Shown here: positions 15,611 to 23,482 of the stretch, in pieces
Layout of the letters: every line of letters begins with the position of its first letter
Position numbering within the stretch: position 1 is the first letter of the stretch
Made by a program: the position numbers and the translations under genes
Notes under the pieces: generated by a model
What the model saw: the letters and a program-made list of their open reading frames with translations, nothing else
The model's database searches: none
What the model was told of the DNA's origin: nothing
NCBI RefSeq assembly: GCF_900474295.1
Contig: NZ_UCOB01000003.1
Span: 1 to 64,000 of the forward strand
DNA length: 64,000 nt
DNA from: Synechococcus sp. UW140
GTDB taxonomy: Bacteria > Cyanobacteriota > Cyanobacteriia > PCC-6307 > Cyanobiaceae
Direction: 5' to 3'

Positions 15611-16082
15611 ACCCACACCCCGTGTCTGCCTGCCGCCATCTCTTGCAACAGTTGCAGGGATTGCCTGAGCACCGTTGTTACCTCGAGGTGACTTAGGCCC
15701 TTCTGGCTCCCAATCTGGCGAACGGTCTCTCCAAGGACGTAATGGCGAATGAGTAGCTGACGGGCATGGTCAGGCAATTGGCGCATCGCTTGATGCAACC
15801 ATTCCAGTTGGTGATCGGTCTTGGTGTCTGTGCGCGAGTCCGCGAGTTGTTCAATGAACGCCGTAGCTGCTGCACCTGTGGATGCTGCGGTGCTGGTTCC
15901 CGGTTGGTGAAGGCTGACCAGATGGCGATGCTGATGGGCCTCGAGCGCCTGCAGCCAGCGGTCCACTGAGACATCAAGAGCGTCCGCGAGCTGTCTGCTC
16001 AAAAAAGGAGGCAAGCCTTGTTGAAGCCGTTATTGCTGGAGTTTCATCCCCTTTGCATGCAGGTTCAGCAGCCGCCAAGGAA
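15595..16082 (-). pseudogene. Sigma-70 family factor, distal half (regions 3/4), separated by the integrated element
   Basis: The minus-strand frame from the left junction (16074-16082) reads Pro-Trp-Arg-Leu-Leu-Asn-Leu-His-Ala-Lys-Gly-Met-Lys-Leu-Gln-Gln, then TAA (16030-16032), then continues in the same frame Arg-Leu-Gln-Gln-Gly-Leu-Pro-Pro through region 3 (Ala-Asp-Ala-Leu-Asp-Val-Ser) to region 4 (Leu-Pro-Asp-His-Ala-Arg-Gln-Leu-Leu-Ile-Arg-His-Tyr) and a stop at 15595. Downstream of the TAA a TTG at 16014 could start a 139-aa remnant. It matches the C-terminal part of cyanobacterial alternative sigma factors. The N-terminal half lies 8.2 kb away at 24253-24646 in the same orientation. 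The TAA is one base from CAA (Gln). Confidence 0.85.
16074..16082 (+). other. Left attachment core (attL), GCCAAGGAA
   Basis: A 9-bp direct repeat also found at 24253-24261. It lies exactly where sigma-factor sequence stops matching and the AT-richer element begins. On the minus strand it encodes Pro-Trp of the sigma protein. The integrase gene begins just inside it. Confidence 0.8.
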
Positions 16083-16131
16083 GTGTCTAGTCCCTGTTAC
16101 AACAACGGATTTAGGACACCATTGTATCGTC

Positions 16132-16149
16132 ATACCAATGAGATACCAG
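16132..16149. repeat. Left-arm repeats (ATACCAA and ATACCAG)
   Basis: Two near copies of the octamer found at the right end, ATACCAA (16132-16138) and ATACCAG (16143-16149), spaced 11 bp apart, one helical turn. They lie 50-67 bp inside the left core and are probably integrase arm-binding sites, by analogy with phage attP arms. Confidence 0.6.
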
Positions 16150-16151
16150 CT

Positions 16152-17534
16152 ATGCCAAAGGTCACTCAAAAGCACGATGTGCTGAACGGCGCTGGCTCGC
16201 TTGTTCAATATGGGTCTGGCACCAGCAGTGGTAAATGGTTCTTCCGTCAGTGGATAAAGAGTGAGAAGCGATACATCCAACGGCAGATACCTGGCGCAAA
16301 AACTCTTGATGAAGCAATGTCAGGTGTTTTGGACGTAGCGTTTGAGGTCAAGAACGAGATTGAGCAACCCAACCTTCAGGCGGGTAGCAGCAGTAGGCGA
16401 GCTCGGACAAAGAACAAAGACAAGGTGAAGCGTGAAGCTATAGACACAGCGATTGGAAATTTCCTTGCCGTTCAACTAGATAGGGCGGAAGCAGGCTTGA
16501 TTGAGTTTGAGACAGTGAGAAACCGCTCCAACCTGTTCACTAATTACGTATTGCCTTATCTCAACGGTAAAGGTATTTATTGCACTGATTCCATTGATCT
16601 CACGACCTTTGATGATTACTTGGTTTATCGTGCTGAGACCACACCATTGCAAAGACAGCAGGAGGTAAAGCTAATCAAGTATTGGTGTCGATCATACCTT
16701 GTGAAGAGAGGACTGATTAATCCAATCCTATTGTTTGATAAGAGCTTCTTGCCAAAGCAAAAGGTGACTGAGAGCGATAGGTTAAAGAATCCTGCGATAC
16801 CGGCTGAAGATTGGAAGATGATAGTTGATTATGTCAGGGATGAGTGGAGGCATAAGGTAAAGGATAATTTCAACCAGCGTTATTGGTATTGGCGCAATCT
16901 GTTCTGGCATTACCTGTTGTTCTCAATCAATACTGGTATGTCGCCTGAAGAGGTCGTAAGGATGAAATGGAAACAAATAGAATTGGTTGATGAAGGAAGG
17001 ATAGATAGCAAGGGAGATCGTCAGGTATGGGAGGTAGCTTATGTATCAACCATTAGGTCAAAGACTAAGGCACCAAGAGAGATACCGTGTAATCAGGCAA
17101 GGGAGCTGAGACGGTGGAAAGATTTCGTTGCTGACTATTGCATCTCTCATAAACTACCTTTGCCTACAAAGGATACGCCTGTATTTGGTAATCCATTCCC
17201 TAGGTCAGGTAGTCCTGAAGGGTGGAGGCCTTATCACCGCACTTCATTCAGTGGAACTTGGAGAGAGATCCGTGCTTCATTGAAGGATAAATTGAACGGC
17301 CATAGGTACAGCCCACACCCTTTTACCTTGTATTCATTGAGGTCTTCCTTCATTGAGAACCATTTGCTTAAGGGAACCCCAGTGATTGAGGTCGCAAGGA
17401 TGGCAGGCCATAATATTCAAGAGACGCAGCGTAGTTATGAACGTCTTGACTTGAGAAGGAGGGGTATGGAAATTACTGCGCCAAAGTTTGGTAGCAGCAG
17501 AACAAATAAAAAGACATCAGAGCAGCTTTTCTGA
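16152..17534 (+). CDS. Tyrosine recombinase / integrase
   Basis: Presumed to catalyse integration and excision of the 8.18-kb element between the GCCAAGGAA cores. The C-terminal catalytic domain shows Tyr-Ser-Leu-Arg (box II Arg), Met-Ala-Gly-His-Asn and the nucleophile Tyr in Gln-Arg-Ser-Tyr-Glu-Arg. Box I reads Asn-Thr-Gly-Met-Ser-Pro-Glu-Glu, with Ser where the catalytic Arg usually stands, and Tyr replaces the usual His of HxxR. A SAM-like core-binding domain lies at roughly residues 90-200. The ATG at 16152 (460 aa) is chosen; the frame stays open back to 16053, but those codons cross the left core into the sigma gene. The next gene starts 2 bp after its stop. Confidence 0.88.
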   Translation: MPKVTQKHDVLNGAGSLVQYGSGTSSGKWFFRQWIKSEKRYIQRQIPGAKTLDEAMSGVLDVAFEVKNEIEQPNLQAGSSSRRARTKNKDKVKREAIDTAIGNFLAVQLDRAEAGLIEFETVRNRSNLFTNYVLPYLNGKGIYCTDSIDLTTFDDYLVYRAETTPLQRQQEVKLIKYWCRSYLVKRGLINPILLFDKSFLPKQKVTESDRLKNPAIPAEDWKMIVDYVRDEWRHKVKDNFNQRYWYWRNLFWHYLLFSINTGMSPEEVVRMKWKQIELVDEGRIDSKGDRQVWEVAYVSTIRSKTKAPREIPCNQARELRRWKDFVADYCISHKLPLPTKDTPVFGNPFPRSGSPEGWRPYHRTSFSGTWREIRASLKDKLNGHRYSPHPFTLYSLRSSFIENHLLKGTPVIEVARMAGHNIQETQRSYERLDLRRRGMEITAPKFGSSRTNKKTSEQLF

Positions 17535-18865: not shown

Positions 18866-20089
18866 ATGAATTTTGCCAAGCGCTTATTCCTTGGACTGGC
18901 TTCGTGCACAGCCTTGTCGATAATCTCTACGCCTGGCTCTGCTCAGGAGTGGACTGATATCTTGTATTGGATTAACGATGGCGATGGAGAAGATCAATCT
19001 TGGGTTTTTTATGATTTCAATGAGAATACTGGAAAAAAGAAATTATTCTCTAGGAAAAAGTTCGGAAAATCAAACAGTCTGTATAAAGGTTATTCGTTTT
19101 TCAATGAGCAGAATGGAAATCTAAGCGTTACAAGAGAGGACGGCAGGATTTTTGAATTCAATAGAGAATCCTCAAAATGGGTTAGGAAGGGGAGAAACAG
19201 TAAAGTAGATCAATTTTACAAGGGTGGGTCCGCTATAACGTTTCTGCCAATTCCTGGCATTCGAAGCAATTTGGATGGCACAGTTGATGTTGGCATTGGC
19301 CAACGTACAATCACATTGGATGGTGAAGGTGTTAGTTCAAAGGGTACAAACTTGATATCTAACAAAAATGACGTGATTCACATTGGCGAAAACTCACTCA
19401 TCACCCACGAAGAAGATGGCATCCAAAAACTATATGCACAAGATGCAGAAGGTAATCCAATCCCAATCAACATCACTGAAGGAACTGACCTACAAATCAA
19501 TGGGGTTAGCGTTCAGAGTCAAATCGAAACCAATCAACAAGACATCAAGACAAATGCAGCAGAAATCCGCTCGAACCGCCGTGCCATCAACGCGATCGAA
19601 GACAATGTGAATGATCTTGGCTTTGGTGTCGCTGGTGCAACAGCACTCTCCACTGCAATGACAGCACTTCCAACGGTTGCAGAAGACTCACCATTATCTT
19701 GTGGTGTTGGAACTGGTGGATATAGCAGTCGTTATGCAATGAGTGTTGGTTGTGCTGTGAAGGCAACTGAACGACTTTCTTTTAATGCTGGTGGTTCTTA
19801 TGTCTTTGGTGGTGCTGCTGACTATGGGAATGGCTCTCTTTCCAATGTTGCTGGCAGAGCAGGTTTTGTGTTCAAGTTAGGTGAGGTTAAGTCCTCGTCA
19901 AAGGGTGATCTTCAAGCACGTGTTACTGACCTAGAGAAGGCTAATCAAACAATTTTGGAAGCCAACCAGACGATCCTGGAAGAGAATGCCTCTATCAAAT
20001 CCATCAATAACGATTTGATGGCTCGCCTTGAACGTCTTGAAGCAATTGCTTCTTCATCACATACAGATAGAGACTTGGCTTCTAGGTAG
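18866..20089 (+). CDS. YadA-like trimeric autotransporter / surface adhesin
   Basis: A 407-aa exported protein. The signal peptide runs to about residue 26 (Pro-Gly-Ser-Ala-Gln). A passenger with beta-rich and Gly/Asn-rich segments follows (27-215), then a coiled-coil stalk (Ile-Glu-Thr-Asn-Gln-Gln-Asp-Ile-Lys, about 215-245). A YadA-type membrane anchor spans about 245-338 (Gly-Val-Ala-Gly-Ala-Thr-Ala-Leu, then Gly-Tyr-Ser-Ser-Arg-Tyr-Ala, and Gly-Arg-Ala-Gly-Phe-Val-Phe-Lys-Leu-Gly). Family members trimerise in the outer membrane and mediate adhesion. Unusually, the anchor is not C-terminal: about 65 further residues form a second coiled coil with a short internal repeat (Ala-Asn-Gln-Thr-Ile-Leu-Glu twice). 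AT-rich codon use suggests transfer. Confidence 0.8.
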   Translation: MNFAKRLFLGLASCTALSIISTPGSAQEWTDILYWINDGDGEDQSWVFYDFNENTGKKKLFSRKKFGKSNSLYKGYSFFNEQNGNLSVTREDGRIFEFNRESSKWVRKGRNSKVDQFYKGGSAITFLPIPGIRSNLDGTVDVGIGQRTITLDGEGVSSKGTNLISNKNDVIHIGENSLITHEEDGIQKLYAQDAEGNPIPINITEGTDLQINGVSVQSQIETNQQDIKTNAAEIRSNRRAINAIEDNVNDLGFGVAGATALSTAMTALPTVAEDSPLSCGVGTGGYSSRYAMSVGCAVKATERLSFNAGGSYVFGGAADYGNGSLSNVAGRAGFVFKLGEVKSSSKGDLQARVTDLEKANQTILEANQTILEENASIKSINNDLMARLERLEAIASSSHTDRDLASR

Positions 20090-20941: not shown

Positions 20942-20995
20942 AATTACTGTAGTCACTTATCATCCTTTGATTACCTCCACCAACTACATGCATAA
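20942..20995 (+). repeat. 54-bp imperfect direct repeat, copy 1
   Basis: Matches 21198-21251 at 39 of 54 positions by my count, best in the first 37 (29 of 37), sharing TAGTC-n2-TTATCATC and TTGATT. It ends over the ATG of the thyX remnant, so it may be a duplicated promoter or 5' leader. Confidence 0.6.
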
Positions 20996-21146
20996 ACTTA
21001 CTTACTTACATAGTACAGAACAAGGTGATGATCTCATTGCTTACATGGCACGAGTCTCTAATCCATCTAATCAAAACAACACTGAAACCAGTGCTCGTCT
21101 GATTAAATATATTGCTAGACATAAATATTTGTTTGTAGCTCTATGA
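20988..21146 (+). pseudogene. thyX: N-terminal remnant of flavin-dependent thymidylate synthase (ThyX)
   Basis: A 52-codon frame contains Asp-Leu-Ile-Ala-Tyr-Met-Ala-Arg-Val-Ser-Asn-Pro-Ser-Asn-Gln and Ala-Arg-Leu-Ile-Lys-Tyr-Ile, the N-terminal signature of phage-type ThyX, which methylates dUMP. It stops after His-Lys-Tyr-Leu-Phe-Val-Ala-Leu, just where the family motif with Trp-Ser-Pro-Phe-Glu should come. The catalytic region is gone, so it cannot be active. Cyanophages often carry thyX, so a phage source is likely. Confidence 0.7.
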
Positions 21147-21197
21147 GGGAGGCTGCTCGTGAAAATGATCTTTGACTTGCCTCATTGCTTTCAGTCT

Positions 21198-21251
21198 AAT
21201 TGCTATAGTCGATTATCATCTATTGATTGCCTTCGTTCATTAAATGAATAA
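21198..21251 (+). repeat. 54-bp imperfect direct repeat, copy 2
   Basis: Second copy, 256 bp after the first. It also ends over an ATG (21244), here followed by only ten codons (Met-Asn-Asn-Asn-Phe-Glu-Ser-Leu-Gly-Arg-stop), so it appears to lead into a dead or truncated gene. Confidence 0.6.
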
Positions 21252-21340
21252 CAACTTCGAATCATTAGGTAGATGAATTGTTTACTTCATAGTGTCTTTG
21301 TTTACTTCTTGGCTACACTACAAGTAGACAAGTATTTACT

Positions 21341-21652
21341 GTGCAGCTAATCCCACTTGCCTTCCTTGCTGTATCGGGGATTTACAGCCTTTTAATGTGT
21401 ATGTATTGGCTTCTAGTCACTCATTCTCCGTTACATATGGAGTTGGTACGTTTCGAGAGCTTGTTCACTGGTTTGATTTATGGCGTGTTGCAATTCACAT
21501 TGCTGTTTCTTGCTCTTCTGATCTCATTGGTGGTTTTGTTTACTAAAAAATATTCAAACAAATCAGTGTCTCTAGGTATAACGTTTGTATTGGCTATATT
21601 CAATGTCACGTTCTTTATTTGGGTGATAGACCACGTTCTTCTTCTGCTTTGA
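21341..21652 (+). CDS. Small membrane protein, three spans, 103 aa
   Basis: GTG at 21341 starts a very hydrophobic protein with helices at about 3-28, 44-68 and 78-102, joined by short charged loops (Thr-Lys-Lys-Tyr-Ser-Asn-Lys). No motif recognised. It lies inside the element, tail-to-tail with the double-glycine peptide gene on the other strand; an immunity or export role for that peptide would be pure conjecture. Confidence 0.55.
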   Translation: MQLIPLAFLAVSGIYSLLMCMYWLLVTHSPLHMELVRFESLFTGLIYGVLQFTLLFLALLISLVVLFTKKYSNKSVSLGITFVLAIFNVTFFIWVIDHVLLLL

Positions 21653-21684
21653 AGTTATTGTAGTCCAATTATTAAAGCAACTTC

Positions 21685-21837
21685 TTAGCCTCCCTCGCTC
21701 ATTGGGACTTGAGTGGGATTCTCTTTGTGGTGATGAAACTTAAATCCTCCTGTGATTTCATTTGCCTCACTATCGGATAGCTCAACAAGTTTTTCATCCT
21801 TGTTTTCAGAGTCTTTTTTCGTCTGATCTTTTGTCAT
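21685..21837 (-). CDS. Double-glycine-leader peptide precursor (RiPP/microcin-like), 50 aa
   Basis: From ATG at 21837 the peptide has a charged leader ending Glu-Leu-Ser-Asp-Ser-Glu-Ala-Asn-Glu-Ile-Thr-Gly-Gly, the classic double-glycine motif cleaved by C39-peptidase ABC exporters. A 19-residue core follows, Phe-Lys-Phe-His-His-His-Lys to Ser-Glu-Gly-Gly, with a His triplet that could bind metal. Family knowledge: marine Synechococcus and Prochlorococcus carry many such precursors. A longer frame to 21888 adds 17 basic residues unlike a leader, and the TATAAT at 21859-21864 supports the shorter form. No exporter or modifying enzyme is in the window. Confidence 0.65.
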   Translation of the reverse strand: MTKDQTKKDSENKDEKLVELSDSEANEITGGFKFHHHKENPTQVPMSEGG

Positions 21838-21858
21838 TGATCTTATGGCTTTACGCCT

Positions 21859-21864
21859 ATTATA
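21859..21864 (-). promoter_or_regulatory. Likely -10 box for the double-glycine peptide
   Basis: The minus strand reads TATAAT here, 21 bases upstream of the ATG at 21837, which would give a leader of about 15 bases. No convincing -35 box is seen, as is common in picocyanobacteria. Confidence 0.4.
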
Positions 21865-22025
21865 GCTACAATTTTTTCGATAGAGCAACCTCTTAGTGAT
21901 TCAATACAGGTGCAATTCCTGTTGGTTGTATTGCCAATGGAATTGATGAACCCATTGGTAGAACTTGAAGGGTGGATCAAGTTTTAACTACTCATCATGT
22001 CATTAAAAAAGCTAGCTCTCTTTGA

Positions 22026-22100
22026 GCGGCGGTGTCCTAGTGGATAGGAACAGTGATCATCTGGTGATCTTTGTGTTGGTTCGATTCCGACAGTTCACAT
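22026..22100 (+). other. Degenerate tRNA-like sequence
   Basis: It contains a D-arm-like TCCTAGTGGATAGGA, an anticodon-like hairpin with loop ATCTGGT (would read CTG, Gln), and a good T arm (GTTGG-TTCGATT-CCGAC, 22075-22091). The 5' acceptor strand (GCGGCGG) does not pair with the 3' side (AGTTCAC), so it is not a functional tRNA as folded. Another T-arm-like hairpin, ACAGG-TGCAATT-CCTGT, lies at 21906-21922. Both look like remnants of phage or host tRNAs. Confidence 0.5.
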
Positions 22101-22157
22101 TCGGTGAGTTTTCCACGTCCTTAGTGATGTGGTTAAAACTACACCCTTCAAATAATA

Positions 22158-22487
22158 ATGAAAACAGCTAAGCAAATTAAAGTAGACAACAGAATTACCA
22201 CAATCATCACTTGTGATAACTGCGGTAAGGAAACACAAGTCAAGGCGAGTATCGATACCAAGACTGTCTCTAAGGCACTTGAGCGATCTTGTTCATCGTG
22301 TCAACCACACTTCTATGTCGATGGGTGGTGGCAACAGTTTGGACTTAAAGCCAATCCCTACGTATATGGTCCTATGCAACGTCTACGGACTAGTAGAGAC
22401 TATCGAATGCAAGAAGCGAGGCGAATGGGATGGATGGCTTGGACTTGGGATGACGAGTACACAGAGTCTGGAAAGTGTCCGTCCTAA
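22158..22487 (+). CDS. Zinc-ribbon hypothetical protein, 109 aa
   Basis: Has Cys-Asp-Asn-Cys-Gly at about residue 20 and Cys-Ser-Ser-Cys-Gln about 26 residues later, a four-Cys zinc ribbon. A Trp/Tyr-rich region (Asp-Gly-Trp-Trp-Gln-Gln-Phe) and basic segments follow. It could bind nucleic acid or protein. Its AT-rich codon use is like that of its element neighbours. It ends 4 bp past the stop of the convergent beta-barrel gene. Confidence 0.6.
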   Translation: MKTAKQIKVDNRITTIITCDNCGKETQVKASIDTKTVSKALERSCSSCQPHFYVDGWWQQFGLKANPYVYGPMQRLRTSRDYRMQEARRMGWMAWTWDDEYTESGKCPS

Positions 22488-23482
22488 AATCCCAAAAACT
22501 GCCCCTTTCGTCCAGCACGTAGCGTATGTCGTGCACCCTTAGTGTCAAATCTATGGTCGTGCACCCTCACATCCCGGTTGCTTGGCGTTGATGTTAATGC
22601 ATTGATCACAGGCAGTTGTTGAACATCTTTGCGCTGTGCTGTTGTACTAGCGCCGCCAAAGCGAACTTTAATATCAGCTGAAACTCTTGTATCGAATGCT
22701 TCGTCGTAGGAGAGATTTACTCCTGCTGTGACGCCACTTGTCATTTCATAAGCCAAGCGTCCACGCACACCAGAACCATCAGCGGATCCAAGGTCGCCAT
22801 GTTGGTAGTAGTAGCCAACAGAGGAATTCAGCTCAGGCGTGATGAAATAGCCAACATCAAGCCCATAGGTATCCAGTGCACCACCTTGGTAATACCAGTT
22901 CAGTTTCTGCTCGGTATCTCCAATAGGAATCAAGGCATAGGCATTGAGGTTCCAGGCATTGGAAACAGCTTCTGCATTGACAGCCACCTGCTGGAAGAAG
23001 GCACTCTTCTCTGTGCCGCTGACATCGACCCAGGTGTCGGTTCCGCCTGTATTCATCGGGCGGCTGTCATAACCAGCATTCAGCCCGTACATCCAGCTGC
23101 GGTCACCATTCAGCCAGCGATAACCCAGACGTGATGAGGTGGAGATGGTGGTACCAGCCACATCGGTATTGATGATGCTGCTATCGCCCTCACGGTCAGC
23201 GAAGTTGACGTTCGCCAGCACGTCAGCAAAGAAGACGCTGTTCTCGCCAACAGAGATCGGAAGGAAGCCGCCGATACCTGCTTGATTCGGTGTTCCAGCA
23301 CCCTGCAAGGCACCTTGGAAGCCAACCCGTGGCTTGACGAAGTCTTTGAGGCTGATGCTCATCACCCCAAGGTCGTCCGCACTGCCGTCCTCTTGAGCAG
23401 CGGTAGGCAGCAGAGGAGTATTTGCAACTGCCATTGCAGCAATACCAATCAGCGATAGATACAGTCTTCCAGGAGGCCGCAC
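22484..23482 (-). CDS. Outer-membrane beta-barrel protein, inverse-autotransporter-like
   Basis: GTG at 23482 gives 332 aa with a signal peptide (hydrophobic residues 7-28, then Thr-Ala-Ala-Gln). The body has the features of the inverse autotransporter (intimin/invasin) beta domain: Phe-Val-Lys-Pro-Arg-Val-Gly-Phe-Gln-Gly, Val-Phe-Phe-Ala-Asp-Val-Leu, Ser-Ser-Arg-Leu-Gly-Tyr-Arg-Trp-Leu, and alternating aromatic strands. The large extracellular passenger of adhesins is missing: the protein ends after the barrel with a basic polar tail. By eye its base composition is closer to the chromosome than to the other element genes. It may be a pore or the remains of an adhesin. Confidence 0.7.
   Translation of the reverse strand: MRPPGRLYLSLIGIAAMAVANTPLLPTAAQEDGSADDLGVMSISLKDFVKPRVGFQGALQGAGTPNQAGIGGFLPISVGENSVFFADVLANVNFADREGDSSIINTDVAGTTISTSSRLGYRWLNGDRSWMYGLNAGYDSRPMNTGGTDTWVDVSGTEKSAFFQQVAVNAEAVSNAWNLNAYALIPIGDTEQKLNWYYQGGALDTYGLDVGYFITPELNSSVGYYYQHGDLGSADGSGVRGRLAYEMTSGVTAGVNLSYDEAFDTRVSADIKVRFGGASTTAQRKDVQQLPVINALTSTPSNRDVRVHDHRFDTKGARHTLRAGRKGQFLGF

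Follow-up and report, generated by a model that had tools for sequence, protein, structure and literature searches.

A double-glycine peptide of Synechococcus sp. UW140 with a core resembling the inter-helix turn of IcmD/DotP

What would a short peptide with a double-glycine (GG) leader, encoded within a presumed mobile element of a probably marine picocyanobacterium, act upon? We know of no target for most cyanobacterial GG peptides. The case considered here comes from Synechococcus sp. UW140, in a stretch of 64,000 nucleotides (contig NZ_UCOB01000003.1, positions 1 to 64,000; hereafter the window), where a precursor gene of 50 amino acids (aa) occupies positions 21685..21837. A sequence-only reading of this DNA had described a leader ending in NEITGG and a 19-aa core; both stand as described, and the strand can now be given as minus. 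The open reading frame (ORF) runs from an ATG at 21837 to a stop codon at 21685-21687 and is translated as MTKDQTKKDSENKDEKLVELSDSEANEITGG followed by FKFHHHKENPTQVPMSEGG, whereas an alternative TTG start upstream of the ATG would give 67 aa. From the translation and an alignment of four peptides, the leader (31 aa, 21745..21837, minus strand) ends in LSDSEANEITGG. The core (19 aa, 21688..21744, minus strand) is, at the level of sequence, a near copy of a turn in IcmD/DotP, a likeness that the sequence-only reading missed: over its first 17 residues, it matches the inter-helix turn of that secretion-system subunit. We tentatively propose that the peptide may be an exported mimic of this turn, most likely disturbing a Dot/Icm-type machine of another bacterium.

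A frame of 50 aa is meaningless when taken alone, and conservation therefore decides whether the gene is real. Among 31 genomes of the genus, eight matched at E <= 1. The same core is present in the UW140 genome and in three of the 30 others, namely G029 (E 1.7e-10; FKFHEHKQNPTQVPISQPLDD), G005 (1.0e-8; FKFHKHERNPTQVPLSEPRDD) and G024 (1.0e-7; FKFHRQERNPTQVPLSEPRDD), which bears out a conserved leader/core peptide of the double-glycine type. The other four matches were weak (0.036-0.62) and fell on other leaders or unrelated frames. All four peptides that share the core end their leader in Gly-Gly, and none of their cores contains Cys. Codon comparison of the core (GG plus the first 17 core residues, six pairs) gave proportions of synonymous differences (pS) of 0.41-0.85 and of nonsynonymous differences (pN) of 0.07-0.23; the 14 leader codons before GG gave pS 0.45-0.88 and pN 0.25-0.60. 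Selection keeps the core rather than the leader, and the core is under purifying selection.

The whole-peptide alignment, searched against 400 genomes of the cyanobacterial family, matched 16 at E <= 0.01, including four clear members (E 1e-26 to 1e-30). The remaining matches were weak ones to the core part (G126, G059 and G237) or came mainly through the leader. G126 carries a relic in another genus, with the leader LENVSGG and the core FQFHQHKLNLTEVPLGKPFTDD in different frames (L148, contig C4, about 200-320), and the match in G237 is a frame with two stops. A core profile searched over the phylum (386 genomes) matched 18 genomes at E <= 0.1 and five at E <= 0.01; these five are the UW140 genome and G700, G521, G109 and G565 (8.6e-4 to 0.0095), the latter four being frames that have no GG leader and look like chance. 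The core query gave no match among plasmids and phages, and of 34 pattern matches in viral contigs none was a relative.

Where, then, does a similar sequence occur? An exact-pattern scan of genome_contigs with two patterns from the peptide alignment, covering 84,980 species but perhaps not records close to the genome of the window, returned four stretches. Three of the four encode relatives, and all three are the same gene, an IcmD-like one. Its product is a protein of 121-138 aa with hydrophobic helices, encoded in a Dot/Icm (type IVB) operon. The gene comes after those for IcmG-like and IcmC-like proteins, and immediately downstream, or beyond a second copy, lies an IcmJ-like (HNH-type) gene. 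A gene for an IcmB-like ATPase comes next at L017 and L019, and the contig of L018 stops short of that position. The names IcmC, IcmD, IcmG, IcmJ and IcmB are given to these genes of metagenome-assembled genomes from their position and from the icm gene order. DotG/IcmE of L017 scores 958.9 bits (cut-off, 750). Support from other models is weak and below their cut-offs: VirB4_CagE (E 8.7e-4) for the ATPase, and TraQ (E 0.0031) and, with a better E, TrbL (6.6e-5) for IcmD. Against Pfam DUF6750 (PF20535), the IcmD-like proteins reach 26.3, 22.3 and 17.1 bits (cut-off, 27). A similar order around DotG, an HNH gene and IcmB is found in a conjugative plasmid record.

The part of IcmD that matches the core is the turn between helices, FFKFHQHKQNPTQVPLSQ. 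In an AlphaFold model (mean pLDDT, 64), IcmD forms a helical hairpin whose turn holds NPTQVP (residues 84-89). Among solved structures there was no useful IcmD relative, and a fold search with IcmD found nothing at E <= 0.001, its best match being a subunit-c hairpin (E 0.99). A plasmid search with the L017 IcmD protein gave no match; two other IcmD queries gave 30 and 3 weak records, of which two were opened. In one of these, a Roseibium plasmid, no secretion gene was found among the 17 annotated features around the match. As a separate observation, G758, G759 and G760 each carry IcmD in triplicate within about 1.5 kb (L081, L084 and L086).

The match was followed in both directions. Forward, a profile of the core (A2) searched against the order of G729 matched 28 of 36 genomes with a best E of 0.01 or less (the lowest, 3.9e-11); against the class, it matched 37 of 369. 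All 28 loci of the order set and 28 of 37 in the class set were opened; of the class set, seven had no locus, and G729 and G751 were shared with the order set. An IcmD-like sequence was present at 56 of the 56 opened loci (tblastn with the L017 protein, itself among them) and an IcmJ-like neighbour at 54, the exceptions being L124 and L136. At L100 and L101, the IcmD frame contains stops. In a phylum-wide draw of 299 genomes, the sole match at E <= 0.01 was G729, which was already known. In reverse, a profile of IcmD turns only (A4) was searched against 400 cyanobacterial-family genomes, and its top five were UW140 (3.9e-10), G029 (8.2e-10), G005 (6.2e-8), the relic of G126 (3.3e-6) and G024 (1.0e-4). 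The next match was at 0.0126; 76 of the 400 genomes matched at E <= 1, and the matches below the top five (E >= 0.0126), most of them unopened, were taken as chance.

Residue by residue, each core is identical to its nearest IcmD turn at 12-15 of 17 positions. Shuffled sequences (1500 per core) reached at most 7-9 identities, and 23 other GG cores of the clade, chosen by eye or pattern from available loci like the A4 turns and the turns for codon comparison, reached 2-6. The G059 sequence, YKHHTHKANPSQALW, scored 7 in this identity test and is regarded as only a possible relic because that score lies within the range of the shuffles.

Does such a likeness imply a common target? No less probable than mimicry is that this is an ordinary exported GG peptide, used in competition or signalling, that has no Dot/Icm target and came to resemble IcmD by convergence. 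A short motif may fit the same physical job in both proteins, for example, a helix end followed by an NPTQVP turn at a membrane surface. The genomes of this clade are rich in GG and Nif11-like peptides, according to PMC10783134 and to the searches made here, and such a background agrees with convergence. So do the codons, which are unlike those of IcmD: in the best pairs, the same codon is used at 6/14, 4/15, 5/13 and 3/12 of the shared residues. Two homologues also depart from the IcmD 'HK', reading HE in G005 and QE in G024. In contrast, convergence accounts poorly for the 12-15 of 17 residues common to core and turn, for detection in both directions with a clear gap, for the lack of any other match at E <= 0.01 in the 299 phylum-wide genomes, and for the two-pattern scan, in which all three relatives among four stretches were IcmD.

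The codon usage and the changed HK also weigh against the mimicry proposal itself, as do several further points. A2 matches near 1e-3 count only at IcmD loci because chance-like frames reach 8.6e-4, and the reverse test is not fully independent because the A4 turns came from A2-matched loci. One opened plasmid, of the conjugative MPF_I type, encodes a protein in the IcmD position that has no such motif; a general anti-conjugation role is therefore not favoured. By the positive-inside rule, the IcmD turn is expected on the cytoplasmic side, and a peptide acting from outside would therefore have to enter another cell. In the window, finally, the leader has A at -7, the core lacks its usual P(R/L)DD end, and a promoter scan reported no site of the scanned type in 21600-22150.

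How could the peptide reach such a target? The suggestion that the genome be searched for a C39 ABC exporter was followed up with success: the UW140 genome has three C39 matches (PF03412). Two are ABC exporters that combine a C39 domain with membrane and ATPase domains and retain the catalytic-Cys motif ECGA; in the third, Ser replaces the catalytic Cys. Of the two with the motif, one has a clear HlyD-type gene as a neighbour, and the other adjoins a TolC-type gene as well as a gene that is HlyD-like (21.5 bits; cut-off, 22.2). No C39 exporter adjoins the peptide gene, and putative export would therefore occur in trans. A C39 exporter would cut after GG, releasing a linear 19-aa peptide that contains no Cys. 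Outside the cell, the released peptide would imitate the IcmD turn and interfere with a Dot/Icm-type machine of another bacterium, possibly by competing for the partner that holds this turn during assembly.

A bolder form of the proposal, in which the peptide mimics the Dot/Icm turn and jams the machine as a mobile anti-secretion-system weapon, appears somewhat unlikely. If true, it would suggest that picocyanobacteria and bacteria with Dot/Icm systems are engaged in a conflict not yet described, for example, within protist grazers common to both. In the literature library searched, the strings NPTQVP, HKDNPTQ, HKENPTQ and FKFHQHK turned up only in two papers, which concern vaccines against Acinetobacter. 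The value of the likeness lies in the fact that the sequence itself names a candidate target, one subunit of one secretion machine, with the imitated turn mapped by residue. A direct test of that target is thus possible and would open a way to study IcmD/DotP, a subunit that has received little attention. The case also suggests looking for further exported peptides that copy pieces of rival machines.

How did the gene come to its present place? It lies in a 208-bp unit (21676..21883) that alignment shows to be present here and absent from a paralogous sequence on contig C23. Alignment and pattern search place a 13-bp repeat on either side: the left copy, AGCAACTTCTTAG (21676..21688, plus strand), contains the peptide stop codon, and the right copy, AGCAACCTCTTAG (21884..21896, plus strand), has one mismatch. 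When up to one mismatch is allowed, these two sites alone match in the window (0.11 expected), and the C23 sequence has a single copy. Such a picture would result from an insertion accompanied by a target repeat, and also from a deletion between the repeats. The second copy of the neighbourhood (L147, contig C23, 111000-116698, near the contig end) corresponds to 21197-22498 of the window and includes the 103-aa and 109-aa ORFs described below and no peptide gene; identity is 90.0% in the left-hand 492 bp and 97.4% in the right-hand 618 bp. In the 3' part, the two copies agree exactly for several hundred bases, including a tRNA-like stretch at 22026-22100; this stretch contains GGTTCGATTCC, was seen by eye and was not called by ARAGORN. 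The repeat finder missed the imperfect 13-bp repeat; that it reported nothing for G005 and short families for G024 is therefore not decisive for either copy. An empty-site search with the G024 flank yielded mainly other repeats, together with the core itself in G029 and G005, and no clear empty site.

Such a unit, with its flanking repeats, lends some weight to gene-fragment capture, in which a piece of icmD became a new core behind a GG leader and now serves an unrelated role. The G029 copy, which lies near integrase-like, helicase-like and terminase-like genes, and the widely different cores found behind similar leaders in the clade point the same way. However, there is no trace of icmD at the codon level, and the core residues are kept while synonymous sites change; we consider capture unlikely. 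Recent transfer of icmD DNA was considered separately and is not supported, as the codons give no sign of it.

The unit edge also bears on whether the gene is alive. The window core ends in GG and a stop at the edge of the 208-bp unit, where the homologue cores have P(R/L)DD, and this may be because the stop codon sits in the left 13-bp repeat. Hydrophobic residues at -4, -7 and -12 matter in GG leaders; the window leader has I, A and L at these positions, and the three homologues have L, L and M/L/L. The replaced C-terminus, the A at -7 and the silence of the promoter scan would agree with a relic or unexpressed gene in the UW140 genome. That possibility is nevertheless quite improbable, as the frame is intact and the core residues of the window are still conserved with respect to the homologues. 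By eye, GCTATAATAGG (21856..21866, minus strand) includes a TATAAT -10-like hexamer 22-27 nt upstream of the ATG.

Two further ideas attached to this locus fare less well. The small hydrophobic protein next to the peptide had been proposed as its helper. Its ORF exists (103 aa, 21341..21652, plus strand) and is convergent with the precursor gene, but homologue searches count against a pair: the protein has an 87% paralogue elsewhere in the UW140 genome, where there is no peptide; G029 and G024 have no 103-aa match at E <= 0.1; and the match in G005 is weak (4.8e-4) and about 384 kb away. The ORF is judged not to be part of the system. A metal-binding signal had also been suggested from the His triplet, and the support for it proved weak. 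HHH occurs in one of the four peptides (middle position H/E/K/R, third H/H/H/Q) and only the first His is common to all four; with no conserved His cluster, this reading was set aside.

The mobile setting, in turn, is supported: an integrase-like ORF at 16053..17534 on the plus strand (phrog_1, E 1.2e-18; PF00589, 21.9 bits, under the 27.1 cut-off) makes it plausible that the peptide gene lies inside an element. Other features of this neighbourhood include a 109-aa ORF (22158..22487, plus strand) that weakly resembles a Zn-ribbon, below the Pfam cut-off, and is duplicated with the 103-aa ORF on C23, and a ThyX-like fragment at 20967-21146 (phrog_85, E 7e-9; Pfam Thy1, 16.4 bits, under cut-off), which suggests phage-derived debris in the element. 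Within the presumed element, a protein with a YadA-like membrane anchor is encoded at 18866-20089 (PF03895, 31.9 bits; cut-off, 22.7). Defence-system models gave no match for three proteins.

To which known systems, finally, does the peptide compare? Like the prochlorosins and other Nif11-leader peptides of picocyanobacteria, it has a GG site and occurs in a similar kind of genome, with Nif11-like peptides close to the copies in G029 and G005. At the end of contig C32 of G029 (L005), a second GG peptide with the core RARCPGTADFIRGDLK precedes the homologue and a Nif11-like peptide follows (1346-1504, 1897-2169). Membership was rejected, however: the leaders are 31-36 aa long and show no Nif11 match, there is no Pfam match at E <= 10, and none of the four cores has a Cys for thioether rings. 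The function of prochlorosins is itself given as unknown in PMC10783134. Among NCBIfam models, only CTB and lasso models matched the peptide, both under cut-off. The likeness to the CTB family bacteriocins (NF038167) is a weak one of the leader, at 13.4 bits against a 32-bit cut-off, and the three homologues have no match at E <= 0.1; CTB membership was likewise rejected.

With IcmD/DotP, the peptide has in common the 17-residue turn FKFHxHKxNPTQVPxS[QE]. The window core fits the turn motif FKF(H/K)xHKxNPTQVP, from which G005 and G024 depart at HK. The peptide is not a member of that family; instead of the two hydrophobic helices around the turn, it consists of a GG leader and the turn only. 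Closest in organization are the C39-exported double-glycine peptides of the microcin and class II bacteriocin type. EbfG is the name of such a protein type in Synechococcus elongatus. The small secreted proteins of that species are comparable double-glycine peptides, as described in PMC4997328. As in these systems, there is a short precursor with a GG site, and C39 exporters are encoded in the genome. In contrast to them, the exporter is not adjacent here, and the core matches the turn of a secretion-system subunit.
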